Notes under the pieces: model-generated
Told to the model about the DNA's origin: nothing
What the model saw: the letters and a program-made list of their open reading frames with translations, nothing else
The model's database searches: none
Origin: a virus
Length of the DNA: 37,088 bases
Direction: 5' to 3' (one strand)
IMG/VR virus record: IMGVR_UViG_3300033553_000089
Coordinates: 1-37,088 of that record
Made by a program: the position numbers and the translations under genes
In this document: positions 3,496 to 20,970 of the stretch, one piece after another
How the letters are laid out: every line of letters starts with the position of its first letter
Position numbering within the stretch: the first letter of the stretch is position 1

Positions 3496-3525
3496 AGTAT
3501 AGCACAGAGCATGTACATATGTCAA
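3496..3525 (-). promoter_or_regulatory. Sigma70-type early promoter (copy A of shared element)
   Basis: On the minus strand: a perfect -35 TTGACA (3525-3520), an 18-base spacer and -10 TATACT (3501-3496) preceded by TGC (extended -10). The stretch GCTCTGTGCTATACT shares 11 bases, CTCTGTGCTAT, with four other promoters here. The -35 overlaps the TGA stop of the gene at 3522-3707, so this is an internal promoter that boosts the distal half of the operon. Confidence 0.8.
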
Positions 3526-3707
3526 GCCCTCTTTTTAACAAAAGCCTTCGCTGTATTGTATCTATCATCAAAGAACAGCTCGATTTCGCCACCAACCATA
3601 ACCTTAGCTTCCACCTGTCTATCAGTCTCTACAGTAACAACAGCATATTGGTCGCCATCTTTATTGGTGCGTTTTTCTACGGATAGTATCTTTGTGATTT
3701 TAGCCAT
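3522..3707 (-). CDS. Hypothetical early protein, 61 aa, beta-rich
   Basis: Starts MAKITKILSVEKRTNKDGDQ and continues with alternating beta strands (YAVVTVETDRQVEAKVMVGG), the look of a small OB- or Sso7-like barrel that could bind nucleic acid, though no family is recognised. ATG 3707 is chosen over a GTG at 3719 because GAG sits eight bases upstream, within the end of the NinG-like gene. The stop lies inside the -35 of the internal promoter. Confidence 0.65.
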   Translation of the reverse strand: MAKITKILSVEKRTNKDGDQYAVVTVETDRQVEAKVMVGGEIELFFDDRYNTAKAFVKKRA

Positions 3708-4254
3708 TAGTAGGCTCACTAAACTTTAAGATGTATTCTTTGGCGTCGTCTATTATCTCCTGCAACTCATCACGCCCGAACTTATACGTCGGATACTTTC
3801 TAGCCAAGTTCTCTAATTCTTCTGGCACTTCATCACCGTACTTCTCCGCCAATGCTAGACGGTACTTCTCATACTCACCTGAACGCATCTTGTTACATCT
3901 AAAGGAACACTGTAGGTTCACATTCTGGTCGTTGAACCTGACTATATGCTTACCCCTACTCACAAAGTGGCCGTTGTCCCAGCCCTTAGAATAGCGTACG
4001 GCCTTCGTAGGGCGGTTCTTAGCCGTTTCTGGGTCGAGATAGGCAACAACACCCGTCTTTGAGCAAGTGATACAAGTACCAGTCCAATTCTGCCCATCAA
4101 ACTCACAGTCCCTTAATCGTATATACCAGCTATGCCAGTCGTCTGCCCTTTTCCGTAGCTCCGTTATTGTTTCAACCTTTGGCTTCTTACCTAGTGGGAG
4201 CTTGGCTTTCATAGCTCTGACTTCTTTTTGCTGCTTAGTTAGTTTCTTCGCCAT
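3700..4254 (-). CDS. ninG: NinG/Rap-like recombination nuclease
   Basis: 184 residues, the usual length for lambda NinG (Rap). The order of landmarks fits: a lysine-rich N-terminus, WYIRLRDCEFDGQNWTGTCI with the zinc pair C-x2-C at TCITCSK, the NGHFVSRGKHI box with its conserved His, then VNLQCSFRCNKMRSG with a second cysteine pair and Y-x2-Y-x6-K-Y-G. NinG-family proteins are structure-directed endonucleases acting on recombination intermediates such as D-loops. The gene lies beside an SSB-like protein and upstream in the same operon as the RecB-like exonuclease, forming a recombination module. It overlaps its upstream neighbour by 20 bases. Confidence 0.85.
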   Translation of the reverse strand: MAKKLTKQQKEVRAMKAKLPLGKKPKVETITELRKRADDWHSWYIRLRDCEFDGQNWTGTCITCSKTGVVAYLDPETAKNRPTKAVRYSKGWDNGHFVSRGKHIVRFNDQNVNLQCSFRCNKMRSGEYEKYRLALAEKYGDEVPEELENLARKYPTYKFGRDELQEIIDDAKEYILKFSEPTNG

Positions 4255-4447
4255 TCTTGTTCCACCTAGCTTTAGCTGCTTTACTTGCTATTTCACTTCG
4301 TCTTTCAGGAGAGATAGATGCTGTCCTCTTACTAGGGTCGTAAGTGGTGCGAGACTTAGCTTGATTATCTTTATAGAACGCCAATAGAGCTTCCTCTGAG
4401 CCAAGCTTCTTCAACATCGTCTCTCGTATCTTCTCTGCGTGTGTCAT
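4235..4447 (-). CDS. Hypothetical early protein, 70 aa
   Basis: A basic helical protein ending in the pattern SPERRSEIASKAAKARWNKN, the 'K-A-A-x-A-R-W' tail common in small phage proteins predicted to bind DNA. It starts at ATG 4447, sharing one base with the stop of the SSB-like gene, and overlaps the NinG-like gene by 20 bases. Likely an accessory factor of the recombination module; function not shown. Confidence 0.65.
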   Translation of the reverse strand: MTHAEKIRETMLKKLGSEEALLAFYKDNQAKSRTTYDPSKRTASISPERRSEIASKAAKARWNKNGEETN

Positions 4448-4830
4448 TAGAATGGGATGCTCGCTAAGTCGATTGGCGCATCTTCATCGCTAGGTGTTTG
4501 GTCGTACTCTTGCCTAACTAGGTTGAAGAAATATCGAATATCTATGCCCGACTTGCCGTTAGATTTAACTGCGAATGTCTTATTAACTAAATCAGCTTTA
4601 CCGTTCTTGAAAGTGGCTTCCAGCAGACTACCTATCTGGCCAGACCCCATATCTAACTGACCCTTATCTGTAGTGACGGGGTAGAGCTTACGGAAACCGT
4701 CCTCATACTTCTCTGAGGTGAGCATACGCTTTGCGTCATTGTCCCACTTCTTAAAGGTGTATCCGCCCACTTCACTTACGGTGAACTGACTACCTACTAG
4801 CTCTGATAATTTTACAAACTTCTTGTCCAT
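4447..4830 (-). CDS. SSB-like single-strand-binding protein
   Basis: 127 residues with a beta-rich body (KLSELVGSQFTVSEVGGYTF start; later DIRYFFNLVRQEYDQT) followed by an acidic linker and the terminal sequence DEDAPIDLASIPF. Ending in acidic residues plus I-P-F is the signature of bacterial SSB C-terminal tips, which recruit partner proteins through that last Phe. I do not see a textbook OB-fold motif set, so the assignment rests on the tail, size, and position between NinG-like and KGG genes. It could instead be a host-SSB mimic competing for SSB partners. Stop and start of neighbours touch it at 4447 and 4830. Confidence 0.6.
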   Translation of the reverse strand: MDKKFVKLSELVGSQFTVSEVGGYTFKKWDNDAKRMLTSEKYEDGFRKLYPVTTDKGQLDMGSGQIGSLLEATFKNGKADLVNKTFAVKSNGKSGIDIRYFFNLVRQEYDQTPSDEDAPIDLASIPF

Positions 4831-5156
4831 TACTTTCTCCTTATTATCTCTTTGAATAATCTAACCATGCCGTTGCTACTCTCTAAACCATTTTCCTCAA
4901 GCACACTGGCTAACTCCTCGTCTATGCTTTGTACTTCTTTCGGGAACTCACCCGTAAAGATTGTGTCTTTCGAGCGACCCCTCTTAGATATTGTACCACC
5001 TACTTTTCCAGCTTCGTGTGGGTCTACCTTACCGTGGCCGAAGGCGTGACCTGTGCCAGCCTTGCCACCCTTAGAACCAATCCTCTTATAGAAGTCTGGG
5101 TCTTTAGTCTTGTTCGTTAGGGCTGCTTTTGCTCCCCCTGCTTTTGTTCCACTCAT
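4830..5156 (-). CDS. KGG-repeat small basic protein, 108 aa
   Basis: Starts MSGTKAGGAKAALTNKTKDP and carries Gly-Lys-rich boxes (DFYKRIGSKGGKAG and HEAGKVGGTISKRG) of the KGG type found in stress-induced and phage DNA-associated small proteins. The C-terminal third is a helical LASVLEENGLESS segment. ATG 5156 is preferred to 5168 because it overlaps the TGA of the gene upstream. A nucleic-acid-binding role is likely from the basic Gly-rich half; family known mainly by motif. Confidence 0.7.
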   Translation of the reverse strand: MSGTKAGGAKAALTNKTKDPDFYKRIGSKGGKAGTGHAFGHGKVDPHEAGKVGGTISKRGRSKDTIFTGEFPKEVQSIDEELASVLEENGLESSNGMVRLFKEIIRRK

Positions 5157-5287
5157 GCTATATTCCATTTCGTTATTATTGCGTTTACTACTGCTCTTTT
5201 ACCTTTAGTGGTGCGCTGCAACTTGCGTATGTTCTTCAACATGTCCGACACCTCTATAAACTTTGCTTCTGTTGTTATTACTTTCAT
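5153..5287 (-). CDS. Micro-gene, 44 aa basic helical protein
   Basis: A 44-codon frame with a textbook AAGGAG six bases before ATG 5287. The product, MKVITTEAKFIEVSDMLKNI followed by a strongly basic stretch (RKLQRTTKGKRAVVN), would be a small basic helical protein. Its TGA overlaps the start of the KGG gene. No family recognised. Confidence 0.6.
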   Translation of the reverse strand: MKVITTEAKFIEVSDMLKNIRKLQRTTKGKRAVVNAIITKWNIA

Positions 5288-5295
5288 GTCTCTCC

Positions 5296-5616
5296 TTACT
5301 TAAATTCTAATGCACATTTTTTACAGTTATCGAAGTCCTTAATTGGCTCAAACTCCTGCGTCCTACTCATTGGTAAAATATATACCTCTATACCACCATT
5401 CACCTGCTTTCTACAATCCTTAATGTCATCATAGCTGAAGTACTGCCACTCTGGTTCTGAACGTGCCTTGCTGAAGTGGAGCAGATAATGTTCCGTCCCC
5501 TCAGATATGTTACGGTCATAGATGAGTACGTCTTTAGTGCTGTAGCGTGGCTCCCAAATATAGTCGCCATTCTTGGCTTTTACTATATGGTGGTCAGCAT
5601 GCTTACAGAGTTTCAT
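5296..5616 (-). CDS. Hypothetical zinc-ribbon-like protein, 106 aa
   Basis: A beta-rich protein bracketed by metal-binding pairs: C-x2-H-x2-HH at the N-terminus (MKLCKHADHHIV) and C-x2-C at the C-terminus (DNCKKCALEF), which could meet in one zinc site. The middle is aromatic-rich (EWQYFSYDDIKDC). ATG 5616 is chosen over 5637 because GGA lies seven bases upstream within the end of the exonuclease gene, which it overlaps by 14 bases. Function unknown. Confidence 0.65.
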   Translation of the reverse strand: MKLCKHADHHIVKAKNGDYIWEPRYSTKDVLIYDRNISEGTEHYLLHFSKARSEPEWQYFSYDDIKDCRKQVNGGIEVYILPMSRTQEFEPIKDFDNCKKCALEFK

Positions 5617-6355
5617 GGTCTTTCCATTTACCGTCAAATTGGTGAATTACTTTACCCTGGACTTTCCAGCCGTTCGCAACCATCAGCCCCTCATACACCT
5701 GTAGCTGTTTCTTCCAGTAGGGTTTGTCCTCTTTATAGGAAATCTTGTAGTCCTCTATGATACAGGTCTTGTCACCGACTATCTGTAAGCGGTCTATTGT
5801 GCCAGCTCGCTTGCTCTTGTGGTCTACCACTAGCACCTCGTACTCGGCTTTTTCGTTCTCACGACCCCGATAGAAGCTCTCTACGATGTCTTTGAGGACT
5901 AGGTGGTTAGGTGTGTGATATTCCTTGTCTAGCGTCTTAGCAAGCACCTGGTACTTCCCGTATAGCTCTAGTGCTAGGTGTACTGTTGTGCCGAAGTCTC
6001 TTGAAACCTGACCACTCAATGACCAGAGCTTAGATATATCAGCAGGGTCTACATCAAACTTAGCTGCGACCTTGCCACTCATCATTACTGAGTCAAATGG
6101 TTTCTGCTCACCTTTGGCTATCTGTGAGGCTGAGTCATAGACTCGACCTTCCCACATATAAACGTGGTTTTCCTCGTCATAGTCAATTTCCTGACCGAAG
6201 AAGTCTACCTTACGGACGAAGTTACCCGCCTTAAAAGCTATCGGCGTCTCTGCGTAGTGATTGTAAAGTCTCTCAATCTCTTGGGCTTCACTCGGCTCAC
6301 CCTCTATCTCTATGAACCCGTATTGCTGGGTTGGGACGTGTGCTGTTATCTTCAT
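5603..6355 (-). CDS. PD-(D/E)XK exonuclease, RecB/Cas4-like
   Basis: 250 residues. The catalytic series of RecB-family nucleases is readable in order: the His of GTTVHLALELYGKY (about residue 124), E...GTIDRL around residues 180-190 with the metal-binding Asp, IIEDYKIS giving the D-x-K pair near residue 201, and QLQVYEGLM, the Q-x3-Y motif. Such phage enzymes digest DNA ends to load recombinases or degrade host DNA. SSB-like and NinG-like genes lie downstream in the same operon. The start, ATG 6355, follows GAGG and sits just after the upstream gene's TAG. The N-terminal 75 residues are an acidic extension of unknown role. Confidence 0.85.
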   Translation of the reverse strand: MKITAHVPTQQYGFIEIEGEPSEAQEIERLYNHYAETPIAFKAGNFVRKVDFFGQEIDYDEENHVYMWEGRVYDSASQIAKGEQKPFDSVMMSGKVAAKFDVDPADISKLWSLSGQVSRDFGTTVHLALELYGKYQVLAKTLDKEYHTPNHLVLKDIVESFYRGRENEKAEYEVLVVDHKSKRAGTIDRLQIVGDKTCIIEDYKISYKEDKPYWKKQLQVYEGLMVANGWKVQGKVIHQFDGKWKDHETL

Positions 6356-6448
6356 CTAAAATCCCTCTGGCCTTTCTAGGTCAATCTCTGGTTGTGGCGG
6401 AAGTGCCACGTTAAAAAACAGTAAGTTGCAGTAGTCGTTAGTTGTCAT
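6356..6448 (-). CDS. Micro-gene, 30 aa
   Basis: A 30-codon frame (MTTNDYCNLLFFNVALPPQP start) with GAGGT five bases before ATG 6448, overlapping the end of the upstream gene. It ends directly before the exonuclease start, whose GAGG ribosome site lies inside it, so a leader or coupling role for exonuclease translation is possible. No domain. Confidence 0.5.
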   Translation of the reverse strand: MTTNDYCNLLFFNVALPPQPEIDLERPEGF

Positions 6449-6575
6449 CTTTTACCTCAATCTTCTTACCCATGTGGGCTATTAACTCTGACCACCTATC
6501 ATTGGCGTCCACTTCCTTGAACCATACTTCTAATTTAGAAGGTGTCTCAGGTGGTGGCAAAACTACGTCTATCAT
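6438..6575 (-). CDS. Hypothetical early protein, 45 aa
   Basis: A 45-codon frame, MIDVVLPPPETPSKLEVWFK then a charged helical C-terminus ending KKIEVKDDN. The ATG overlaps the TGA of the preceding gene in the ATGA pattern. No recognised family; called because of coupling and because it fills the only space between two coupled genes. Confidence 0.55.
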   Translation of the reverse strand: MIDVVLPPPETPSKLEVWFKEVDANDRWSELIAHMGKKIEVKDDN

Positions 6576-6772
6576 TCTGGTCGTCCCCCATCATCAGGTT
6601 GATACACTAACTCATGGAATAAGTCTCTCGCAGCCTTCACCTGCTGCGCCACCATATCCATGTCATCTTCATCTAAAGCTTTTTCTATTAACTGAGCTGG
6701 TAGCGTATCTACGAAATAATCCATAAAGAACGCTGCTTCCTCTAGTAGCTCTTGGTTTGAATCTTGGCTCAT
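6572..6772 (-). CDS. Hypothetical acidic helical protein, 66 aa
   Basis: Strongly acidic and helical (MSQDSNQELLEEAAFFMDYF start), ending YQPDDGGRPE. ATG 6772 is chosen over 6784 because of a GGAG site six bases upstream and the ATGA overlap with the first gene of the operon. Small acidic early proteins can be DNA mimics or inhibitors of host enzymes, but nothing specific is visible. Confidence 0.65.
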   Translation of the reverse strand: MSQDSNQELLEEAAFFMDYFVDTLPAQLIEKALDEDDMDMVAQQVKAARDLFHELVYQPDDGGRPE

Positions 6773-7092
6773 GCTTTTCTCCAACTTCCACCGTAGTTAT
6801 CTGATACATACTCTCCTGGCTCAAATGTCTGAGAGGTAAGAACCACAGAAAGAGCCGTCTCTAATTGCTTGTACACCATACCCATATACTCAATTAAACT
6901 ATCTGGGTAGGGTTTATCTTCGTCGTCACCTTCAGGGAAACCGAGTATGTTTGCTATGTCACCATATACATTACCGTTGCCAAAAGGTCGCTTACAATCT
7001 ATAGATGGTGCGCCAAACTCGCAATCTACCCAGCCCACATTGGCGTTCTTTAGAAGTTTAATGTGCGACTCTGTTAATTTGAATTTACTCAT
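6769..7092 (-). CDS. First gene of early operon, 107 aa hypothetical
   Basis: 107 residues, MSKFKLTESHIKLLKNANVG start, with DCEFGAPSIDCKRPFGNGNV in the middle and a helical SLIEYMGMVYKQLETALSVV segment. It follows the predicted promoter at 7121-7148 with a leader of about 20 bases containing AAGGGG/GGGGG ribosome-site candidates. Similar small proteins with the 'SP.xDxKRPFGNS' pattern are common in phages and of unknown role (from memory). It is the promoter-proximal and therefore probably the earliest-made protein. Confidence 0.75.
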   Translation of the reverse strand: MSKFKLTESHIKLLKNANVGWVDCEFGAPSIDCKRPFGNGNVYGDIANILGFPEGDDEDKPYPDSLIEYMGMVYKQLETALSVVLTSQTFEPGEYVSDNYGGSWRKA

Positions 7093-7120
7093 TATTGCCC
7101 CCTTATTACTTTACCCCTTA

Positions 7121-7148
7121 AGTATAGCACAGAGTACACATAACACAA
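7121..7148 (-). promoter_or_regulatory. Main early promoter (copy B of shared element)
   Basis: Minus strand: -35 TTGTGT (7148-7143), a 16-base spacer and -10 TATACT (7126-7121) preceded by TGC. It contains CTCTGTGCTATACT, the shared early element. Placed right of the leftward operon, with the DnaA-box inverted repeat about 20 bases further upstream. Confidence 0.75.
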
Positions 7149-7168
7149 GCGTAAAATAAAGATAATTA

Positions 7169-7238
7169 CTAGACTTATCCACAGTCTAGCGTAGTAGTGT
7201 AAGAACCGAACGCTACGACACCACAGCTAGGGCTAGAC
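7169..7238. other. Candidate replication origin: DnaA box within competing inverted repeats
   Basis: A perfect TTATCCACA DnaA box (7175-7183) lies inside the inverted repeat CTAGACT-TATCCAC-AGTCTAG (7169-7189). The right arm is shared with a second inverted repeat, GTCTAGC (7184-7190) with GCTAGAC (7232-7238), which encloses TAGCGTAGT...GAACGCTACG (7187-7217). Thus one arm can pair left or right but not both. AT-rich sequence lies at 7141-7172. DnaA boxes beside AT-rich DNA and divergent transcription are typical of origins; origin activity is inferred. Confidence 0.45.
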
Positions 7239-7301
7239 ACCCCAATAATGTATATGCTAGTATAAGAGTAACTATTTACTTTCTGTCGTGGAAATAAATA
7301 G

Positions 7302-7334
7302 CCAGTAAAAGAAAAGACCCCGTATCGTGGGGTC
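7302..7334 (-). terminator. Intrinsic terminator, minus strand
   Basis: On the minus strand GACCCC-acgatac-GGGGTC is followed by TTTTCTTTT: a six-pair GC-rich stem plus U-tract, a complete Rho-independent terminator. It would stop leftward transcripts before they reach the DnaA-box region. Confidence 0.8.
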
Positions 7335-7355
7335 AGACGTTACTTCTGTCGTTAC
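7302..7355 (-). ncRNA. Possible very short leftward RNA
   Basis: The terminator is preceded on the same strand, about 20 bases upstream of its stem, by the start point predicted from a promoter at 7362-7389. No coding frame fits in the roughly 50 bases between. An orphan promoter-terminator pair next to a DnaA box could give a primer or a counter-transcript RNA, by analogy with plasmid and phage origins. The RNA itself is inferred. Confidence 0.4.
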
Positions 7356-7361
7356 TTAAAT

Positions 7362-7389
7362 AGTATCACGAGCAACACTTTTACGTCAA
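7362..7389 (-). promoter_or_regulatory. Promoter-like sequence for the short RNA
   Basis: Minus strand -35 TTGACG (7389-7384), a 16-base spacer and -10 GATACT (7367-7362), each one mismatch from consensus. The nearest downstream landmark is the terminator at 7302-7334. Confidence 0.45.
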
Positions 7390-7720
7390 TAGCCGAGGGA
7401 AGGGTTTTGTACACCCAATGGGCGGCTCTAAGAAACCCATTACACAGGCGAAAGCCCCACAGTACAAACAACGCTAGTCGTATGGCGGTAATACGAACTC
7501 TGCACTGCATGTGATGAACATTAACAATCATCTAGGTAAACTAATTAGCTTTTGCTCGTACTTAACATACAAACGGAGTACATTGGGGAAACCCAGACAA
7601 TAGCACTCAGTCTGCATAGATTGACCGCTCCCACCTCATGCAGGTAGAGCGCAAACGTAAGGTTCCCTCTGAGCTTCAACAGCAAAAATCTGAGGGTTAT
7701 TTGTCGTGACGTAGCGCACA
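7390..7720. other. Gene-free structured region
   Basis: No frame with a credible ribosome site was found on either strand. Small inverted repeats are present: TCGTAT-ggcggta-ATACGA (7478-7496), and CGCTC-cc-ACCT-catgc-AGGT-a-GAGCG (7626-7651), a nine-pair two-part hairpin. The density of pairing suggests an RNA or protein-binding role, but no known RNA family or tRNA is recognised. Confidence 0.4.
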
Positions 7721-7748
7721 TAGTCACCTACACGCTAAGTGGTATACT
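7721..7748 (+). promoter_or_regulatory. Promoter for the 51-aa membrane protein
   Basis: Plus strand TAGTCA (7721-7726), a 16-base spacer and TATACT (7743-7748) preceded by TGG (extended -10). The gene starts 31 bases downstream of the -10. Confidence 0.5.
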
Positions 7749-7779
7749 GTATAAGTAACTTATTTCAACGAAAGAAACT

Positions 7780-7935
7780 ATGAACATTCTTATCCGTCTA
7801 CTAATCGCAGTAATTGTATTCTTTGTGGCACAGTGGCTCATCGCCTTCACCCCAATCACATACCCACTAAACCTCTTACTGGCTGTAGCTATCGCTGCCA
7901 TTACATTTTGGCAAGCCCCTACATTCAAAGTTTAA
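7780..7935 (+). CDS. Small two-span membrane protein, 51 aa (holin-like candidate)
   Basis: A rightward 51-codon frame isolated in the non-coding region: MNILIRLLIAVIVFFVAQWL followed by a turn around ITYP and a second hydrophobic run LNLLLAVAIAAITFW, ending APTFKV. Two hydrophobic segments with a short loop give a hairpin membrane protein. It has its own promoter (7721-7748), only a weak purine-rich ribosome site (GAAAGAAA), and is followed at once by another -10 box. Holin or superinfection-exclusion roles are possible; the separate holin-like gene at 33838 makes the latter equally likely. Confidence 0.6.
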   Translation: MNILIRLLIAVIVFFVAQWLIAFTPITYPLNLLLAVAIAAITFWQAPTFKV

Positions 7936-8026
7936 TGCTATAATAAAAGAGCAGCTCACCCTGCACCCCCACATGCTCGCCCCCTTGCGTTCTAGTGGGG
8001 ATTAGCCCCCAGAAATGGGGGTTTTA
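7936..8026 (+). ncRNA. Predicted small RNA with switch-like terminator
   Basis: An extended -10 (TGC TATAAT, 7936-7944) begins directly after the stop of the membrane-protein gene. About 75 bases later CCCCC-agaaat-GGGGG-TTTT (8006-8025) forms an intrinsic terminator. No start codon with a ribosome site lies between. A GGGG at 7997-8000 can pair with the same C-run (loop attag), so two mutually exclusive hairpins exist, as in attenuators. RNA production is inferred. Confidence 0.45.
8006..8025 (+). terminator. Intrinsic terminator
   Basis: Five G-C pairs (CCCCC/GGGGG) around a six-base loop, followed by TTTT and AT-rich sequence; ends the predicted RNA or the membrane-protein transcript. Confidence 0.7.
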
Positions 8027-8154
8027 TGATATATATCACTTACAACCGTAAGCATTTAGGATACATTGAAACTTGATACCTGCCACCACAGGATATAGCA
8101 CCTACCAACTTACATGCGAACTACCTTCACACAGTACTGGTGGATACAAACACT
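8027..8154. other. Gene-free interval between two terminators
   Basis: Contains the perfect 12-base palindrome TGATATATATCA (8027-8038) directly followed by the hairpin CTTAC-aacc-GTAAG (8039-8052). No coding frame and no good promoter were found. An operator or protein-binding site is possible. Confidence 0.35.
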
Positions 8155-8182
8155 AAGCCCTCAACATCTTTGGGGGCTTTTT
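8155..8182 (+). terminator. Intrinsic terminator
   Basis: AAGCCCTC pairs with the GGGGGCTT region (one G-T pair) around a loop of about nine bases and is followed by TTTTT. It would stop rightward transcription before the oppositely oriented lysis cassette. Confidence 0.7.
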
Positions 8183-8202
8183 AGGTGGCGTCGCCAAGGT
8201 AT

Positions 8203-8230
8203 AAAAAAAGAGTGCCATTTCTGACACTCT
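8203..8230 (-). terminator. Intrinsic terminator of the leftward lysis-type cassette
   Basis: On the minus strand AGAGTG-tcagaaatgg-CACTCT is followed by at least six T residues. It lies about 20 bases beyond the last gene of the cassette and faces the rightward terminator at 8155-8182, isolating the two units. Confidence 0.85.
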
Positions 8231-8252
8231 AATTCTCCACATCATCATAAGC

Positions 8253-8480
8253 CTACCACGTTAAAACAAGTATAGCTGTAACCAACGCCCCGTAGATTGT
8301 CAGTAGTCCAACCCGATGTTTTCTCACTAAGTAACCAATGATATACCAGCTGCCTAATTTGGTCAATGGTTCAACCTTTTCAAGTCTCGCTGCCTTTTTA
8401 ACCGCCCACTTGCTAGGCTTCTTCGGGTTATCTAGTTCCATGTAGGAACTCATTACCCTGTCTTCTGCGTCTTTTGCCAT
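8253..8480 (-). CDS. Tail-anchored small membrane protein, 75 aa
   Basis: A hydrophilic, lysine-rich N-terminal half (MAKDAEDRVMSSYMELDNPK start), a short hydrophobic stretch SWYIIGYLVRKHRVG and a C-terminal membrane span LLTIYGALVTAILVLTW. ATG 8480 has AAGGGGG at good distance; an in-frame ATG at 8507 overlaps the upstream TGA and is the alternative (84 residues). Last gene before a strong terminator. Probably part of the envelope-disruption set beside the transglycosylase; a holin or antiholin is possible. Confidence 0.65.
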   Translation of the reverse strand: MAKDAEDRVMSSYMELDNPKKPSKWAVKKAARLEKVEPLTKLGSWYIIGYLVRKHRVGLLTIYGALVTAILVLTW

Positions 8481-8503
8481 TTTGTCCGCCCCCTTTAGTT
8501 TAT

Positions 8504-8680: not shown

Positions 8681-8689
8681 TTACTCTCC

Positions 8690-8815
8690 TTAAAATGGTA
8701 TTAAGTCCATACCAGCCCAAAAGCTGAGACGTATACCGTTATTTTCTTTAATTCTTACACTCCAGTATCCAAGACCTTGCGTCTCGTCCACTTCTTGTAT
8801 CGTGATGTGTACCAT
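8690..8815 (-). CDS. Hypothetical protein, 41 aa
   Basis: A 41-codon frame (MVHITIQEVDETQGLGYWSV start, ending DLIPF) with AGGGAGA before its ATG and a five-pair hairpin GAGCC-acaca-GGCTC (8828-8842) just upstream of the ribosome site. Beta-rich, no recognisable domain. Confidence 0.55.
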   Translation of the reverse strand: MVHITIQEVDETQGLGYWSVRIKENNGIRLSFWAGMDLIPF

Positions 8816-8911
8816 TATTCTCCCTCTGAGCCACACAGGCTCGATTTAAGCTCTTTTATACCTACTTGTGCCTTATGACACCTCGCAACGTGCCACAAGG
8901 CTACAAGAGGC

Positions 8912-9130
8912 TTACTGATTGTCGTATTCTTCTTCTAGCTTTCTAATCTTTGGGCTAGTCTGGTACTTGTACACTTGGTACTCAAACCTTGTAGCCTTAT
9001 CTTTTTCGCCAATATCCCTCAGCCAATTTGTAATGGTGTCGCGGGCGTCTGTTGATGTTATGCCCACCACGTCAGTCCGCACAAGCCCCTGAAATTGCTT
9101 GATGAGTTTTGTAATGTCGCTGTCTTTCAT
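8912..9130 (-). CDS. Hypothetical helical protein, 72 aa
   Basis: Charged helical protein (MKDSDITKLIKQFQGLVRTD start; ends KLEEEYDNQ). It is the first gene after the promoter at 9159-9188, with AAGGGG seven bases before the ATG. No family recognised; likely cotranscribed with the three small genes to its left up to the terminator at 8203-8230. Confidence 0.65.
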   Translation of the reverse strand: MKDSDITKLIKQFQGLVRTDVVGITSTDARDTITNWLRDIGEKDKATRFEYQVYKYQTSPKIRKLEEEYDNQ

Positions 9131-9158
9131 GCTTGCCCCTTGTTTACGTTACATTTGT

Positions 9159-9188
9159 ATGATAGCACAGAGCATACGATTGTGTCAA
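9159..9188 (-). promoter_or_regulatory. Promoter (copy C of shared element)
   Basis: Minus strand: perfect -35 TTGACA (9188-9183), an 18-base spacer and -10 TATCAT (9164-9159) inside GCTCTGTGCTATCAT. The -10 and flank are identical over 15 bases to the promoter of the CAP-domain gene on the other strand at 20956-20970. Confidence 0.75.
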
Positions 9189-9194
9189 AACATT

Positions 9195-9539
9195 TTACAA
9201 AAAACTGAGGTAGCTACGATTGTTGTAAGCACTCCAAGCTGTAAAATTGCCACGCTCTTTGTACAACTGATATGCAACCCTCAGATTTATTGCAGGGTCA
9301 TAAAACTTCGTTACATCGCCACCAACTAGGTAAGCGTGTATATCGTTAATTTGCATTAGCCCATAATCTACTGAGCCATCTTTGTTTAGCCCCTTATTGT
9401 TTCTGTTGGGGTCGCCTCGACTCTCTGCCATGCAAATTGCGTAGGCTGTTCGTGTATCCCAGTCGTAAGACTTCACAGCGTTACAATCTTTCGGGGCGGG
9501 TTCAGCTTTCGGCTTTTCCTTTGGCTTTACTTCCGCCAC
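9195..9539 (-). CDS. Lytic transglycosylase / lysozyme-like protein
   Basis: 114 residues. After a Lys/Pro/Glu-rich linker (residues 1-17) comes an SLT/lysozyme-like fold: AYAICMAESRGDP with the catalytic Glu, DYGLMQINDIHAY, the GLMQI box of goose-type/SLT enzymes, then INLRVAYQLYKERG and FTAWSAYNN. Such enzymes cleave the MurNAc-GlcNAc bond of peptidoglycan. The start is GTG 9539 with only a weak CAGGGG site; in frame upstream there is soon a stop. With no signal peptide it probably depends on a holin or on the small membrane protein encoded just upstream. It could act as an endolysin alongside the CHAP-like enzyme at 33068. Confidence 0.8.
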   Translation of the reverse strand: MAEVKPKEKPKAEPAPKDCNAVKSYDWDTRTAYAICMAESRGDPNRNNKGLNKDGSVDYGLMQINDIHAYLVGGDVTKFYDPAINLRVAYQLYKERGNFTAWSAYNNRSYLSFL

Positions 9540-9544
9540 CCCTG

Positions 9545-9703
9545 TTATTTTTTTACTTCTGTACTCTGAGCCTGTTCAACTGCACTCTGTACTTCGGCTT
9601 GACGATTGCTCTGGTAGTTCATACCACACACAAACGCCACCACTCCAGTTATTAAAACAGCTATTACAACTGTCTTTACTGTCTCTATTACTTGTTTATT
9701 CAT
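9545..9703 (-). CDS. Small N-anchored membrane protein, 52 aa
   Basis: MNKQVIETVKTVVIAVLITG begins a single membrane span (about residues 9-28, containing one cysteine) followed by a polar Gln/Ala/Glu-rich helix ending TEVKK. AAAGGGTGA lies before the ATG. It sits directly before the transglycosylase gene, the position of i-spanins or signal-anchor helpers in lysis cassettes; that role is an inference from context and topology. Confidence 0.6.
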   Translation of the reverse strand: MNKQVIETVKTVVIAVLITGVVAFVCGMNYQSNRQAEVQSAVEQAQSTEVKK

Positions 9704-9716
9704 GCTCACCCTTTCG

Positions 9717-9875
9717 TTAATTAGTTAAATCTCTTAACTGCTCGCCCGTAGTCTTTATCAAAGCTACTTCGTCATAATCTCGTGTAATATCTGAGTATTC
9801 TGTAGCATTGAACATCTTTTCTAGTGCCTTGTCGATAAGCTTTATTTGCTTATCTGTTAATTGTACAGTTTTCAT
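9717..9875 (-). CDS. Hypothetical protein, 52 aa, first gene of cassette
   Basis: MKTVQLTDKQIKLIDKALEK start, a two-helix protein with no membrane segment. AAGGGGGATA lies just before ATG 9875, a strong ribosome site. It is the first coding sequence after the long structured leader driven by the promoter at 10277-10303. Similar 'VxLTxEQixxixxAL' phage peptides are common and unassigned (from memory). Confidence 0.6.
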   Translation of the reverse strand: MKTVQLTDKQIKLIDKALEKMFNATEYSDITRDYDEVALIKTTGEQLRDLTN

Positions 9876-10270
9876 ATTATCCCCCTTAGTTAATTTTCGC
9901 CCATAACATCACTCGTAATTGTGTTATAGGTTATGCGCCCACGCCTATCCGTATTACTAACACGCTACTTCTTGAGAGCGGTTTACATAGGATTTTAACG
10001 AACAGGTGACGGCGCACACATTCTATCTATACCAGTAGGCTGACCACAAGCCATGCACTACCGAGTGCGGTTAAGTGTTCTTTTAACTGTTGAAGCCAGA
10101 GCAGCTATAGCACTTACTTGTGCGCCCACCTGCTGATATAGATTAGATACGCCACCACTATCGACAGTAGCTTATTTAATAGCCATTCTCTGTACCGTTG
10201 TAGTGGTGTATCTTACGTTTCAAATTGTTAAGTTTCGTGTGATGAGTGTCGTTGTGTCTCATCTCACTGT
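9876..10270 (-). other. Long structured leader or non-coding RNA
   Basis: About 390 bases without a credible gene on either strand, lying between a promoter and the first gene of the leftward cassette. It holds several long-range inverted repeats: CACCACTA (10153-10160) with TAGTGGTG (10201-10208), extended by GATA/TATC; GGCGCACA with TGTGCGCC about 100 bases apart; and related copies of a CTATCTATACCAGTAGG-like block in opposite orientations. A regulatory leader, antiterminator RNA or stable RNA is possible; none matches a family I know. Confidence 0.45.
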
Positions 10271-10276
10271 CAATAG

Positions 10277-10303
10277 TATATAGCACAGAGCATACTATTG
10301 CAA
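10277..10303 (-). promoter_or_regulatory. Promoter-like site (copy D of shared element)
   Basis: Minus strand GCTCTGTGCTATATA: the shared 11-base element with -10 TATATA (10282-10277). The best -35 is TTGCAA (10303-10298) at a short 15-base spacing, so this copy may be weaker or activator-dependent. Confidence 0.55.
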
Positions 10304-12854: not shown

Positions 12855-12883
12855 TAGCAATAGATAAATGGTAGTGTTATAAT
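12855..12883 (+). promoter_or_regulatory. Late promoter before the portal gene
   Basis: TAGCAA (12855-12860), a 17-base spacer and perfect TATAAT (12878-12883) preceded by TGT (extended -10). The leader (about 12890-12935) opens with TAGCGG and can fold (AGTAG...CTACT). The promoter at 28325-28354 has a similar early leader. Confidence 0.6.
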
Positions 12884-12935
12884 CAAAACAAAGTAGCGGT
12901 GCGCTTTGACGCTCTACTCCTCGGAACAGGGCAAC

Positions 12936-15385: not shown

Positions 15386-15509
15386 TCGCTGCGGGTGCTG
15401 CCCAAAAAAGACAGCATCCACAGGGGCTACCTCTTTACCCCAAGGGTCATGACCTACCATAGCGGCTCGCCACCGATTAAACAACGGCTGAGAATATAAA
15501 GGAGTGACC
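15386..15509 (+). other. Intergenic region with strong hairpin
   Basis: GGGTGCTG and CAGCATCC (15392-15399 and 15412-15419) form an eight-pair stem with one G-U pair and an A-rich loop. No T-tract follows, so it is more likely a structure for mRNA stability, processing or frameshifting than a terminator. The scaffold ribosome site AAAGGAGTG ends the region. Confidence 0.45.
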
Positions 15510-16328
15510 ATGGCTGTAGATGATACAACCGAGACAACTGAAGATACTGGCCTATCTGACGAAGTCGACACATCCGTAGACGATGGCAAGGATTTGGAAG
15601 AAGACGATACGTCGTTTGAAGACTTACCCGATGAAGATGACGAGGAGACGGCGGCCACCGAAACCGAGGAATCTGATGAAGCCGAAGACAAGGATGAGGA
15701 AGAGTCAACCGATACTGAGGAAGACGACGATGCTGAAGAGTCCATTGAGGACGAGGCAAAGGAAGAACCCGAAGTTGAAGAAGACAAACCAGACGAAGAA
15801 GAGAGAAAACGTCAAAATGACGAGTACGCTCGTAAGCGAATTGCAGACCGCGAAGAGAAGGAGAAAGCTAAGGCTGACTCACAATCTAAGTACCTGGAAG
15901 ACGCTGAAGATGACCGTGACCTCGCGCTTCGCCAACTACAGGTAAACGCCTATAACAATCAGGTAGAGAATAATAGGAATAAACTCCAAACTAGCGTAGA
16001 CAGGGCAGTAGCAGGGATTGACTTGTTCACCACTGGTACACCCGAAGCGAAAGAGGAGCTTGTTGCAGCCGTCGAAGAGTTTGAACGTGCAAACGTCCGA
16101 TACGACACGAACGGCGACCCTATCCAGATTAACGGCGATTTATATGAACATTTAACTAAAAAAGCTAACTCTATACGCCGACTAATGGAATCAGGCGCAA
16201 GGACGGCAAAAACTAGCCAATCTAAAACAAAGGCTCGAACAATACCCGTTCCTTCAAAGAAACCAAAAGAACCAACGGTCGACCCCGACCTAGCAGCGTT
16301 CGATGATGAAGTAGCAAAATACTTCTAG
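15510..16328 (+). CDS. Scaffolding protein
   Basis: About 272 residues from ATG 15510, with AAAGGAG seven bases upstream (GTG-led 15504 is the alternative). The first 100 residues are extremely acidic (EEDDDAEESIEDEAKEEPEV), followed by a charged coiled-coil (ERKRQNDEYARKRIADREEK) and a basic Pro/Lys tail that ends DDEVAKYF. An acidic disordered N-terminus, a coiled-coil and a basic C-terminal coat-binding region directly before the capsid gene is the standard scaffold arrangement. No head protease is seen nearby. Confidence 0.85.
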   Translation: MAVDDTTETTEDTGLSDEVDTSVDDGKDLEEDDTSFEDLPDEDDEETAATETEESDEAEDKDEEESTDTEEDDDAEESIEDEAKEEPEVEEDKPDEEERKRQNDEYARKRIADREEKEKAKADSQSKYLEDAEDDRDLALRQLQVNAYNNQVENNRNKLQTSVDRAVAGIDLFTTGTPEAKEELVAAVEEFERANVRYDTNGDPIQINGDLYEHLTKKANSIRRLMESGARTAKTSQSKTKARTIPVPSKKPKEPTVDPDLAAFDDEVAKYF

Positions 16329-16340
16329 GCGGTCGTATAG

Positions 16341-16356
16341 TTACCCGAAAGGGTAA
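16341..16356 (+). promoter_or_regulatory. GAAA-tetraloop hairpin before the capsid gene
   Basis: TTACCC-GAAA-GGGTAA: six perfect pairs closed by a GNRA tetraloop, immediately before the AGAGAGGA ribosome site of the capsid gene. It probably stabilises or delimits the capsid mRNA. Confidence 0.6.
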
Positions 16357-16368
16357 GAGAGGACTATA

Positions 16369-17205
16369 ATGGCTATTAACGCAGCAACTAAGTTTGCAGG
16401 CAAGACGAGTGAACTATTGTTCACCGCTCGACGCACCAAACTCGTAACAAACCAAGACTACTCTTGGGATGGTGTTGAGACTGTTAAGGTTTACACCCTA
16501 ACTGACCCAACAATCGGCAACTACGACCCAAGTGGTGGTGCCAGCCGATACGGCAACCCAACAGAAGTAGAAGACACAGTACAGACCTTTACATTAAGTC
16601 GTGACCGTTCATGGACGAAGACTATCGACAAGAGCAACTACCAAGACACTATGATGGTTCGCAAACCAGCTAAGTACCTTGCACAAGCTACTCGAAACGT
16701 CCTTGTTCCTGAACTCGACACATACATCATTGCAGCTATCTGTACAGCAGGTGCTACCTACAACCGTGACGATGTGGTTGCAGATGCAGCTACGACTAGC
16801 ACCAACGCTTACACGAACATCACCGACATGGTTGCCGACATTGTTGACAACGATGGCCCATCAGAGGGTCTAATCGGACTTGCAACCCCTGGATACGTCG
16901 CTAAGCTCAAGCAATCATCTTTGTTTGACTCAACAGACGTTGGTCTTGCAGACCGTAAGAGTGGTGTTGTTGGTACAGTAGATGGTGTCAAAATCGTTAA
17001 AGTACCTAGCTCACGCTTCCCAGCAAGCACTGACCTCGTGATTACTCACCCTATGGTTACTGTTGCACCTGAGAAGTTGATTGACTACACGCTTCACAAG
17101 AACCCTCAGGGTGTTTCTGGTGAATTGCTTGAGTACCGTCACCGATACGATGCCTTCATCGACGTTAACAAGATTAACGCCGTAGCTATTCACAAGACCG
17201 CTTAA
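16369..17205 (+). CDS. Major capsid protein
   Basis: 278 residues, MAINAATKFAGKTSELLFTA start, with YLAQATRNVLVPELDTYIIA, the 'V-x-P-E-x-D-x-Y' spine-helix region common to phage capsid proteins of this size, a glycine-bearing A-domain (SEGLIGLATPGYVAKLKQSS) and a beta-rich C-terminal VDGVKIVKVPSSRFP segment. Position after the scaffold and a strong ribosome site support it. HK97 fold is assumed from the family. Shorter than most (about 300 residues) but complete. No N-terminal delta domain is present, in keeping with a separate scaffold. Confidence 0.9.
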   Translation: MAINAATKFAGKTSELLFTARRTKLVTNQDYSWDGVETVKVYTLTDPTIGNYDPSGGASRYGNPTEVEDTVQTFTLSRDRSWTKTIDKSNYQDTMMVRKPAKYLAQATRNVLVPELDTYIIAAICTAGATYNRDDVVADAATTSTNAYTNITDMVADIVDNDGPSEGLIGLATPGYVAKLKQSSLFDSTDVGLADRKSGVVGTVDGVKIVKVPSSRFPASTDLVITHPMVTVAPEKLIDYTLHKNPQGVSGELLEYRHRYDAFIDVNKINAVAIHKTA

Positions 17206-17252
17206 TCAGGTTTAGTCTTCTACCTAAGTTTTAATTAACAAAGGAGAAAACA

Positions 17253-17423
17253 ATGCCCCTAACAAAAGAACAGATAATAGAGATTCAGGCAGCCGCCAAA
17301 TTCAATACTGAAAAACGTATTCGAGAAGCGAAGGAAGAAAAAGACTACAAGCAGAACCTCGCAGACGAGATTGCTCGTGCAAAACTTCCTAAGCCAGCGG
17401 TTGCAGAATCTAAGAAAGGTTAA
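17253..17423 (+). CDS. Small charged helical protein, 56 aa
   Basis: A 56-codon gene with AAAGGAG before ATG 17253 (MPLTKEQIIEIQAAAKFNTE start). The product is a single highly charged helix ending PAVAESKKG. Lying between capsid and decoration-like genes, it may be a head-associated or assembly peptide. No family recognised. Confidence 0.65.
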   Translation: MPLTKEQIIEIQAAAKFNTEKRIREAKEEKDYKQNLADEIARAKLPKPAVAESKKG

Positions 17424-17431
17424 TAACTAAC

Positions 17432-17809
17432 ATGGCAACAGTAGACTTAAGTGGTTTCGGCCACCAAAACGTAGTTGAAAACGCTGCTTCGACCCTTACC
17501 CTATCGCACACAGCGCATAGTGGTTTAGTCGTAAACACCACAGTTACTTCAGTGCTAACGCTACCAGCAGTCGTCGTAGGAATGATTTTCACCCTACGAG
17601 TAGGCGCACCAGGGATTACTATGACAATAAGCCCAGCAGCTCTAGACTTAATCGCAGTAGCAGGCGCAGCTAACGCAGGTGTAGGCGCAGACAACAAAGA
17701 CCTCGTCTTCACGAACCAACCAGCAGGTTCATGGATTCAAATTGCTTACGCAAGTGCAACCGGATGGGCTGTTACAGCTGTATCTGGCGAATTCACAGTA
17801 GAAGGCTAA
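17432..17809 (+). CDS. Decoration-like structural protein, 125 aa
   Basis: A compact all-beta, Ala/Thr/Val-rich protein (TLTLPA-type strands, MTISPAALDLI, then NKDLVFTNQPAGSWIQIAYA and GWAVTAVSGEFTVEG). This 'isomer of tail/decoration' pattern is seen in phage capsid-surface and tail-tip proteins. Its position right after the capsid gene favours head decoration. Followed by the inverted-repeat promoter region at 17827-17878. Confidence 0.65.
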   Translation: MATVDLSGFGHQNVVENAASTLTLSHTAHSGLVVNTTVTSVLTLPAVVVGMIFTLRVGAPGITMTISPAALDLIAVAGAANAGVGADNKDLVFTNQPAGSWIQIAYASATGWAVTAVSGEFTVEG

Positions 17810-17826
17810 TATAAATGGGAATAAAT

Positions 17827-17873
17827 AGCACCCACTGATAGCGTAGTCAGTAGACCAGAACGCTACGGGTGCT
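17827..17873 (+). promoter_or_regulatory. Two-part inverted repeat abutting a -10 box
   Basis: AGCACCC (17827-17833) pairs with GGGTGCT (17867-17873); inside, TAGCGT (17839-17844) pairs with ACGCTA (17860-17865). The inner TAGCGTAGT...GAACGCTACG matches 19 bases of the element at 7187-7217. The last T is the first base of a TATAAT, so the structure could be an operator or a transcription roadblock. Confidence 0.55.
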
Positions 17874-17878
17874 ATAAT
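17851..17878 (+). promoter_or_regulatory. Late promoter before the 221-aa structural gene
   Basis: TAGACC (17851-17856), a 16-base spacer and perfect TATAAT (17873-17878) preceded by TGC. The gene starts 18 bases after the -10 with AAGGA close to the predicted transcript start. Confidence 0.6.
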
Positions 17879-17896
17879 CCCACCATAAGGAAATAA

Positions 17897-18562
17897 ATGG
17901 ACTTCACAAAACTACAATCTCAAGCTAAAGAACGTGACGAAAAGATACAGGCTGGCAAGAAGACTCTTGACGCTCAAATGTCTAACATTGAGCTTCAGAG
18001 AACGATAGTCCGTTCATTTGCTTCACTCGTTGACTATCTCGATAAGAACACATCTAAAACCGAGGTCGTGAACCAGTTGAAACAAATCGGCACTCCTGAT
18101 GCTCTAAAGGTTGCTAAGTCTGTAGATTCACTCCATGATACGATAAAGTCACAAAAAACAGTTGACCTCACTGAAACTATCCAAGCTCTAACTCGTGTGT
18201 TGGACAAAGAAGAGATTGACGACCCTGACTACACAGAACAGCTAAAAGAAATACTCTCGGCTATAAAAGCCCACCAGACAGTTGTAGAAGCACCAGTGGT
18301 AAATGTTCCAGCCCCAGACCTAAAACCCTTTGAGAACGGCTTAAAAAGCGTCACAGGAGCAGTCAATAAGCTAGGTGAGTCAAACATCAAGGTAACTCAC
18401 ACCAACGTACTAGTAGATGAGAAGTTTGACGAGTGGCGACTTGTATTAAAAGATGAAGAGCCTATTGGTATACAATACTATCTAAATGATAAGAAGGTAG
18501 CAGAATTGAAGTATAAAATTAGGGACGAAAGAATAGTAGGCGTGAAGAAAGTAGCGTTGTAA
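17897..18562 (+). CDS. Coiled-coil structural protein, 221 aa
   Basis: Long charged helices over residues 1-130 (QAKERDEKIQAGKKTLDAQM), a Pro/Val linker (VVEAPVVNVPAPDLKPFENG) and a C-terminal beta domain (WRLVLKDEEPIGIQYYLNDK). This resembles phage proteins that link capsid or tail fibres to the particle. It is coupled to the tail fibre by a TAATG stop/start overlap and begins a unit with its own promoter. Probably a fibre-attachment or head-fibre protein; family not recognised. Confidence 0.65.
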   Translation: MDFTKLQSQAKERDEKIQAGKKTLDAQMSNIELQRTIVRSFASLVDYLDKNTSKTEVVNQLKQIGTPDALKVAKSVDSLHDTIKSQKTVDLTETIQALTRVLDKEEIDDPDYTEQLKEILSAIKAHQTVVEAPVVNVPAPDLKPFENGLKSVTGAVNKLGESNIKVTHTNVLVDEKFDEWRLVLKDEEPIGIQYYLNDKKVAELKYKIRDERIVGVKKVAL

Positions 18563-20733
18563 TGAACATTCAAGTAGACCCCAATACTGGCTTACCAATT
18601 ATAACTACGAATGAAAAGCACATCTACGGCGGTGGCTCACTCAATGGCGTCAAGAGTGTAGTAGCTGGCACTAATGTAACTGTAGATAATACTGACCCTA
18701 AAAACCCTGTAGTAAGTTCTACGGGGAGTGGTGGGACAACAGACCACGCTGCATTAAGTAACCTAGACTATGCAAGTGCAGGACACACGGGCTTCCAGCC
18801 AGCAGGCTCTTACTTAACAGATATTTCCAGCCAAGACCTATCTACAGCCGATAACACGACAAGCGCATTTATAACATCAAGTAGCTTACCAACCTCAGTA
18901 GATACACTCGGCCCATCACAAACAGGGAACAATGGTAAGTACCTAACTACAGATGGGACGAACGCTTCATGGGCTGCTCTAGCAGGCGGTGGAGATATGT
19001 CAGCCGCCACCTATGACCCTACTGCCGTGTCTGGTGATGCTTTTAGTATGGGCAACATGGCTGAAACTGCCACCAAGAAGATACTCTCTGATACAGAACG
19101 CACCGCTATCACTACTAACTCAGCTAAGGTTGGCATAACACCGACTCAGGCTAGTGATATTACAACCAACAACGCTAAACTAACAGCCGACACTACCAAC
19201 GTGACCGCAGCAGGGGCTTTGATGGACTCCGAGGTGACTAACTTAGCCCAAGTGAAGGCTTTTAGTAGCGCAGATTATGCAACCGCAGCTCAAGGCTCAC
19301 TAGCCGATTCAGCTCTACAGAACGTAGTAGAGGACACCACCCCACAACTAGGTGGTGCATTAGATGCACGAGGTAATAACATTATAGACCTAGCCGATGT
19401 TACATTTAAGACTGGTGTGGTTGGTGGAACAGTACGAACTGGTGTAAGTGCAGCCGATAAGTTTGAACTACAAGGTTACAAGACTGGTGTTGGTGCTGGC
19501 TACCAGAAGATGCTAGAGGTAGACGCAGGAACAAGCCCTACACTAGAGGTATTCTCCAACTCCTTTGGTATATGGGACGGCACTGATGAAACTAAACACC
19601 TTAACTTTGACGTAAGTGCTATAACAACAGGTACAAACAGAACCCTAACAATGCCTGACGCAAACGTGAACTTGGGAGATATAGCCACAAACAACGCCAA
19701 GATTTCATTCGACTCGACAAGCTCAACCAGACTAGCTAATACATCAGGAACGAACACAGGAGATAATGCAGGTGTAACATCAGTAGGTGCTACAGCCCCA
19801 GTTGCTTCAAGTGGTGGCAATACTCCAACTATATCTATGCCAGCAGCCACATCACTAGCTAATGGCTATGCAACCTCAATTCAGATAACTAAACTAGACG
19901 GTATTGCTACTGGTGCAACAGCTAACTCAACCGATGCCACTTTACTAGCAAGGGCTAACCATACTGGAACACAATTAGCCTCTACTATCTCAGACTTCTC
20001 AACTGCAACAGCAGCAACATCAGCAGTTACGGCTAACACAGCTAAGGTAACCAATGCTACTCACACAGGAGATGTTACTGGTGCAACTGCCCTAACAATC
20101 GCAAATAACGCAGTCACTAACGCTAAGATGGCTACAATGCTCACCAAGACCTATAAAGGTAATACGTCAGGTGTTACAGCAGTACCTACAGATGTTCCAG
20201 TAGCTACCCTAAAGACTGACCTTGGCTTAGTAAAAGGTGACGTAGGTCTAGGTAACGTAGACAATACCTCAGACGCTACGAAGAACTCGGCTACTGCTAC
20301 ACTAACGAATAAGACCTTAACTACCCCAACTATTGCTCAGATTAACAACTCAACAGCTCCAGGGGTAAAACTACAGCTTAGAACTCAGACGGATAACTCT
20401 GACACTGTGTCTTCCGCCACTACAGCAGGAGTATATGTACAGTATGGGTGGGGTCAAGTAGTCGGGAACGGCACAGCTACCATAGCGGAAACTGTAACAC
20501 TCCCAACTGCTTTCACAACTCCGTTAGGCGTTCAGGTAACACTATTGGGCGCAAAAGTTGGCGTGGCTACAGATGTAACAGGACTTAACCTCAACCTTAC
20601 AGGTGCTATTGGCTACACCTATGGGGCAGACTCGCTCACAACTACAAACTTCCGAGCAACACTAAATCGCAACACGGGTACGTTCGGTGCAACTGTCTAC
20701 TATGGCTACGCATGGGTAGCTTGGGGGGTATAG
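18562..20733 (+). CDS. Tail fibre / receptor-binding protein, 723 aa
   Basis: Thr/Ala/Asn-rich repetitive shaft with fibre signatures: AALSNLDYASAGHTGF near residue 60, GLGNVDNTSDATKNS near 560, and NKTLTTPTIAQIN. The C-terminal 130 residues are a beta-rich globular domain (QYGWGQVVGNGTATIAETVT, ending YYGYAWVAWGV), likely the receptor-binding head. No chaperone gene follows. ATG 18562 overlaps the upstream TAA. Such trimeric fibres determine host range. Confidence 0.85.
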   Translation: MNIQVDPNTGLPIITTNEKHIYGGGSLNGVKSVVAGTNVTVDNTDPKNPVVSSTGSGGTTDHAALSNLDYASAGHTGFQPAGSYLTDISSQDLSTADNTTSAFITSSSLPTSVDTLGPSQTGNNGKYLTTDGTNASWAALAGGGDMSAATYDPTAVSGDAFSMGNMAETATKKILSDTERTAITTNSAKVGITPTQASDITTNNAKLTADTTNVTAAGALMDSEVTNLAQVKAFSSADYATAAQGSLADSALQNVVEDTTPQLGGALDARGNNIIDLADVTFKTGVVGGTVRTGVSAADKFELQGYKTGVGAGYQKMLEVDAGTSPTLEVFSNSFGIWDGTDETKHLNFDVSAITTGTNRTLTMPDANVNLGDIATNNAKISFDSTSSTRLANTSGTNTGDNAGVTSVGATAPVASSGGNTPTISMPAATSLANGYATSIQITKLDGIATGATANSTDATLLARANHTGTQLASTISDFSTATAATSAVTANTAKVTNATHTGDVTGATALTIANNAVTNAKMATMLTKTYKGNTSGVTAVPTDVPVATLKTDLGLVKGDVGLGNVDNTSDATKNSATATLTNKTLTTPTIAQINNSTAPGVKLQLRTQTDNSDTVSSATTAGVYVQYGWGQVVGNGTATIAETVTLPTAFTTPLGVQVTLLGAKVGVATDVTGLNLNLTGAIGYTYGADSLTTTNFRATLNRNTGTFGATVYYGYAWVAWGV

Positions 20734-20784
20734 TTTACGAGTGCTACGCCTAGTCCGACACCCCTCTCTTGTGGTATAGACATC

Positions 20785-20814
20785 TTGTTGATTATGTGCA
20801 TATTGTGGTATTAT
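20785..20814 (+). promoter_or_regulatory. Promoter-like site after the tail fibre
   Basis: TTGTTG (20785-20790), an 18-base spacer and TATTAT (20809-20814) preceded by TGG. The transcript would begin about ten bases before the palindrome at 20827-20842. The region to 20940 codes for nothing I can see. Confidence 0.4.
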
Positions 20815-20826
20815 TACACTATCAGC

Positions 20827-20842
20827 TAGAACTAGAGTTCTA
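20827..20842. repeat. 16-bp palindromic operator-like site
   Basis: TAGAACT-AG-AGTTCTA, a perfect 7+2+7 inverted repeat just downstream of a predicted promoter; GTTG-gta-CAAC follows at about 20855. A dimeric regulator binding site is plausible; no regulator gene is evident. Confidence 0.5.
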
Positions 20843-20941
20843 CCTCACTCAAGTTGGTACAACCAAGCTCAACTAGGTAACCGTTCCACCGTCCTAGACT
20901 TTATCAAACAGAGGGGTTGCATTAACAATTAAAAACGGTGA

Positions 20942-20970
20942 TTGCAAAGAATACTGCTCTGTGCTATCAT
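20942..20970 (+). promoter_or_regulatory. Promoter of the CAP gene (copy E of shared element)
   Basis: TTGCAA (20942-20947), an exact 17-base spacer and TATCAT (20965-20970) inside GCTCTGTGCTATCAT. It is the only rightward copy of the early element. The ATG at 20977 lies six bases past the -10, the expected start point, so a leaderless mRNA is predicted. Confidence 0.75.

Follow-up and report, generated by a model that had tools for sequence, protein, structure and literature searches.

Candidate promoters sharing an 11-base element at five sites in an uncultured phage genome

Features at the five sites

The stretch of DNA analysed here (the window; 37,088 nucleotides, IMG/VR virus record IMGVR_UViG_3300033553_000089) contains five exact copies of the 11-base element CTCTGTGCTAT. 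The copies are numbered as sites 1 to 5, and the features associated with them are as follows.

3496–3525, minus: putative promoter at site 1; TTGACA, 18-bp spacer containing CTCTGTGC (motif 3499–3509), −10 TATACT
3481–3489, minus: site 1 leader element GTAACGTAA, its first base, 7 nt past the −10 hexamer, the predicted +1; followed by AGGGGGC and ATG 3465
Leftward from 3465, minus: operon headed by site 1; 63-aa ORF and truncated-looking cytosine methylase (2635–3192)
7121–7148, minus: putative promoter at site 2; TTGTGT, 16 bp, TATACT (motif 7124–7134)
7106–7114, minus: site 2 leader element GTAAAGTAA, spaced from the −10 as at site 1; followed by AAGGGGGC
From ATG 7092, minus: operon headed by site 2; nuclease/NinG
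9159–9188, minus: putative promoter at site 3; TTGACA, 18 bp, TATCAT (motif 9162–9172)
9144–9152, minus: site 3 leader element GTAACGTAA, spaced from the −10 as at site 1; followed by AAGGGGC
9130 to a terminator-like site at 8209, minus: operon headed by site 3
10275–10303, minus: putative promoter at site 4; TTGCAA (10298–10303), −10 TATATA (15 bp) or, two bases shifted, TATACT (17 bp); motif 10280–10290
10271–10300, no strand: perfect 9-bp dyad CAATAGTAT-N12-ATACTATTG spanning the motif
9890–10268, minus: stretch of ~380 nt downstream of site 4, predicted to be highly structured as RNA and without a convincing gene
9717–9875, minus: 52-aa ORF, the first gene past the structured stretch
9545–9709, minus: 54-aa ORF, small membrane protein; visual inspection shows one hydrophobic helix, and the resemblance to spanins is weak (PHROG Rz-like spanin, E 0.017)
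9195–9539, minus: lysozyme-like transglycosylase (SLT_3, E 1.1e-13)
20942–20970, plus: putative promoter at site 5; TTGCAA, 17 bp, TATCAT (motif 20957–20967)
20977–21474, plus: CAP-domain secreted protein, 165 aa, with a signal-like N-terminus (CAP E 2.1e-17)

The methylase gene seemingly lacks its middle: it encodes 185 aa, against 377 aa in a related phage genome, G007, and its C-terminal part matches Pfam positions 186–324.

The element recurs beyond chance expectation

The five-copy element on both strands described by the initial annotation, whose 15-base intervals are the 11-base copies with their flanks, is exact: four copies lie on the minus strand and one on the plus strand, with 0.06 expected from order-3 Markov simulation of the window (simulated maximum 1). 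The window contains neither further exact copies nor copies with one mismatch, and CTCTGTGCTAT is its sole 11-mer with at least four copies spaced at least 300 bases apart, overlapping versions of itself aside. In 150 simulations, no moderately complex 11-mer exceeded a dispersed multiplicity of 4, against the 5 observed; for 13-mers the same simulations reached 3, against four copies of TGCTCTGTGCTAT. In 40 earlier simulations run without a complexity filter, an 11-mer multiplicity of 5 was reached once. Taken alone, the multiplicity is strong evidence, short of overwhelming, and the remainder is carried by position and context. The sites are masked by antisense ORFs in a 14-mer discovery confined to non-coding DNA. 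Four of the five copies extend to TGCT-CTG-TGCT, a 7-bp direct repeat.

Anatomy of the candidate promoters

With the −10 hexamer starting at TAT, the element places CTC at −20 to −18, TGTG at −17 to −14, C at −13 and TAT at −12 to −10. Eight of its 11 bases are those of a textbook extended −10 (TGTG-C-TAT), and CTC, often as TG-CTC, is left over. The earlier description of an element reaching well beyond an ordinary extended −10 was right about the additional CTC and overstated its reach, as the bases outside TRTG-n-TAT number three in the motif and five in four of the copies. TG stands one base ahead of the −10 hexamer (TGC-TAT) at all five sites, at site 4 in the unshifted register only. The hexamers themselves are close to TATAAT, reading TATACT at sites 1 and 2, TATCAT at sites 3 and 5, and TATATA, or TATACT two bases on, at site 4.

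Upstream of each element is a TTG-type −35 hexamer: TTGACA at 18 bp, TTGTGT at 16, TTGACA at 18, TTGCAA at 15 (17 if shifted) and TTGCAA at 17 for sites 1 to 5, so that the spacer falls within 16–18 bp at sites 1, 2, 3 and 5 and, in the shifted register only, at site 4. Sites 1 and 3 are the two top matches of a plain sigma-70 scan (12 kb), in which the total number of matches equals the level in shuffled sequence. Distances from the sites to gene starts are sensible except at site 4, which heads a long non-coding stretch.

Common to sites 1–3 is a leader, GTAAMGTAA (GTAACGTAA or GTAAAGTAA), which begins 6–7 nt past the −10 hexamer at constant spacing and is followed by a ribosome-site-like GGGGC and the ATG. 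The shorter pattern A[AC]G[CT]AA is also present in leaders of extended −10 promoters of genomes G001, G007 and G014; it occurs in 8 of 21 leaders, against 1.55 in shuffles (maximum 7), a post hoc count inflated by paralogous copies.

The initial annotation set these sites apart from four 'late' TATAAT promoters (10405, 12878, 17873 and 28349) said to lack the element. CTC is indeed absent from all four, but those at 12878 (TGTTATAAT), 17873 (TGCTATAAT) and 28349 (TGATATAAT) are extended −10 promoters too, with TG one base ahead. As predicted promoters, the motif sites differ from the 'late' ones by CTC and an imperfect −10 hexamer, not by the extended −10. The leaders past two of the latter, 12884–12930 and 28355–28410 (plus), look alike (tagcgg-tgcg-ttt-a-cgc...) and possibly share a hairpin.

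The CAP gene at site 5

The CAP start codon at 20977 lies 6 nt past the −10 and coincides with the predicted transcript start, and site 5 would yield a leaderless CAP mRNA. The same leaderless layout precedes the CAP genes of two relatives, as TTGACA-17-TATAAT-6-ATG in G002 and TTGACA-17-TATATG-6-ATG in G006, and in a third, G014, a longer leader separates the promoter from the gene; none of the three has CTC. A −10 about 6 nt ahead of the CAP start codon is thus found in the window, G002 and G006, and not in G014. With relatives' CAP genes carrying promoters of their own at the same place, the earlier proposal that the CAP gene was captured into the set is not supported. Nor is a common early regulon: sites 1 and 2 head nuclease and methylase operons, but behind site 4 is a lysozyme cassette and behind site 5 a tail-region gene.

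Promoter positions and promoter sets in relatives

Searches with the major capsid yielded 34 viral loci, and 21 viral records were searched whole for the exact motif. CTCTGTGCTAT was found in none of the 21 related records or the other loci fetched, and in IMG/VR it occurs at chance level. Combined with the strict leader pattern, the motif had no match in IMG/VR; combined with GTAA, it gave 19 single matches in unrelated contigs, about chance on a rough estimate of the collection size. Megablast of window positions 1–25000 against named phages gave no match. Orthologue searches returned one truncated contig for the site 2 protein and one genome (G014) for CAP, and none for the site 3 protein and the lysozyme. 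What is conserved by position in relatives is the promoter, not the exact motif: upstream of orthologous genes, where the initial annotation would have taken absence of the motif as a refutation, the 11-mer is absent while promoters are present.

G007 has a set of its own, comprising four CGTATGCTATATT-type promoters with GTATGCTATATT copies (three with CGTATG) and TTGnnT at exactly 17 bp. Its copy at 910 heads an operon orthologous to window genes 4235–4447, 2635–3192 and 303–500, which lie behind sites 2 and 1. Among 15 genomes, a repeated gene-proximal extended −10 set was found in the window and G007 only, and in the reversed control of neither. Across 620 kb of the phage group, the strict extended −10 occurs 22 times upstream of ATG ORFs, against 0 for the reversed pattern, and its distance to the ATG is most often 6 bases (count of 4). 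CTC is not enriched in relatives. Given the four-copy set of G007 and the lack of CTCTGTGCTAT in relatives, each promoter set therefore appears to be phage-specific. Comparison of relatives can in this way separate phage-private repeated promoters from conserved promoter positions.

Two relatives of the phage are held in the MAG CALMKR01 (1.7 Mb; two organisms in the bin), where the exact motif occurs once, about the chance level. Two different 16S genes in this MAG (L076 and L077), which we take to look CPR-like, have GGATTAATTC at the 3′ end in place of the usual CCTCC; one has an insertion.

A structured stretch ahead of the lysis genes

Downstream of site 4, the minus strand from 10268 to 9890 folds with an MFE of −121.4 kcal/mol (z −5.03, 0 of 100 shuffles as stable; z −4.3 in a second shuffle set). 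A scan of the window in 240-base pieces gave a mean z of −0.17 (s.d. 1.3), and pieces at least as extreme as the site 4 stretch were 8761–9000 (minus) and 17761–18000 (plus). An Rfam search of the stretch found no family.

A parallel layout is seen in G007, with a promoter copy at 39523, a 367-base stretch (39534–39900; z −4.6), a 66-aa ORF that includes a hydrophobic helix, and a transglycosylase of which only the start precedes the end of the contig (PHROG transglycosylase E 6.6e-5; below cut-off with Pfam SLT, E 0.028). The structured stretches of the window and G007 have no sequence similarity by blastn, and what the comparison shows is a shared layout, not common descent of the RNA. It is possible, if doubtful, that these folded non-coding RNAs of ~370–380 nt, which lie directly ahead of genes for a small membrane protein and a transglycosylase, belong to a phage leader or regulatory RNA family not yet described that is linked to the lysis cassette and shares its switch with other phage operons. 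Recurring ahead of lysis genes in two distant members, the structured stretch is a lead worth following.

All five sites were examined for the dyad that spans the motif here; it is present at site 4 alone, and an operator of this form common to all sites was discarded. Just past the 72-aa gene of the site 3 operon, a very stable RNA structure is predicted at 8690–9000 (minus; z −8.5 for 8761–9000, from few shuffles, and z −4.2 for 8690–8911).

Interpretation of the shared element

The five sites are probably promoters for the host housekeeping RNA polymerase (sigma-70/sigma-A type), each combining a TTG −35 with a TATNNT −10 across a 15–18-bp spacer that has the extended −10 TGTGC at its end. 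In the shared 11-mer, three spacer bases, CTC, would then be followed by the extended −10 and the first half of the −10. The promoter reading of the initial annotation is supported by the −35 at all five sites, the sensible gene distances (site 4 excepted) and the positional counterparts in relatives. Because a TTG −35 lies at 15–18 bp at every site, these would be promoters of housekeeping type, and no special sigma factor is needed. The family may have arisen in part by duplication and drift of a promoter–leader cassette, since sites 1–3 resemble one another all the way from the −35 through the ribosome site; the spacers of sites 4 and 5 would have converged on the same optimum. In structures published for other bacteria, −18 to −12 is contacted by sigma region 3 and the beta-prime zipper (PMC5101437), and the polymerase binds more tightly where the spacer contains TG or TGTG (PMC8695583), which makes a preferred spacer directly upstream of the extended −10 plausible. 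A general polymerase preference for CTC is unproven, given its lack of enrichment in relatives. Counting against the housekeeping reading are the weak −35 at site 2 (TTGTGT at 16), the ambiguous register at site 4, and an invariant CTC beside −10 hexamers that vary (TATACT, TATCAT, TATATA), which is odd under selection for polymerase affinity alone.

That same invariance would suit a phage-encoded activator or repressor that recognises TGCTCTGTGCTAT over the promoter core and co-regulates the five sites, with protein and site private to each phage. Such a protein would agree with the 7-bp direct repeat in four of the five copies, with the different homogeneous set in G007 and with two features of site 4: a 9-bp dyad across the motif and a −10 possibly shifted by two bases relative to it. 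The other four sites lack the dyad, however, and in the subset of window genes whose proteins were scanned no helix-turn-helix or other regulator scored above the cut-off (sub-threshold matches such as HTH_7 in the terminase small subunit being ignored), nor was a repressor or integrase seen; on balance we regard this explanation as unlikely. If the copies were instead merely recent duplications of one promoter cassette, with CTC functionless, the run of TTGACA-18, motif, GTAACGTAA and GGGGC common to sites 1 and 3 and the restriction of the set to this phage would follow. Sites 4 and 5, however, have only about 13 bases in common with the others, below a plausible duplicated segment, and precede unrelated genes, one of them where relatives have an independent promoter, leaving duplication alone a somewhat unlikely account. 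At these two sites CTC may reflect polymerase contact, a phage regulator or descent, among which sequence does not discriminate.

The initial annotation suggested a particular host sigma factor or activator. An alternative sigma factor with its own consensus could explain a motif longer than an extended −10, but is most improbable: the −35 is at or near housekeeping spacing at all five sites, TGTG-n-TATNNT is a normal extended −10, and the orthologous CAP promoters keep TTGACA/TATAAT without CTC. Among the proteins scanned, no sigma factor exceeded the cut-off. From the housekeeping reading follow predictions of promoters and transcript starts that can be tested in this uncultured phage group, which has no close named relatives.

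Comparison with known systems

The five sites resemble housekeeping sigma-70/sigma-A promoters of the extended −10 class (TATAAT preceded by TGn or TRTGn) in their TGTGC-TATNNT and TTG −35 at 15–18 bp, and in such promoters sigma region 3 and the beta-prime zipper make contacts upstream as far as −18 (PMC5101437). They depart from typical examples in the invariant CTC at −20 to −18 and the imperfect −10 hexamers. Phage-specific repeated promoter or start-site elements are already a known kind. Like the SAS and ESAS of cluster K mycobacteriophages (PMC3203893, PMC12699233), the present element is a short phage-specific repeat before several genes, with a consensus that varies between related phages and a function that is inferred. 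The window set is nevertheless outside that family: SAS (GGGATAGGAGCCC) is located at the translation start, whereas the window motif is in the promoter core (the −10 region) and has far fewer copies, and ESAS has upstream 17-bp inverted repeats, which the window lacks, bar the one dyad spanning the motif at site 4. The CAP gene, with its ATG 6 nt past the −10, recalls leaderless genes whose −10 (TANNNT) abuts the ORF (Deinococcus-Thermus, PMC12340547; survey, PMC3160421). Unlike those, it is a phage gene, and it also has a −35 and an extended −10.

Elsewhere in the window, 1117–1782 (minus) holds a beta-solenoid-like tandem coding repeat (SIKAGG/WIEAGD), and at 7738–7935 (plus), within the leftward arm, a promoter-like AGTGGTATACT precedes a 51-aa hydrophobic ORF.
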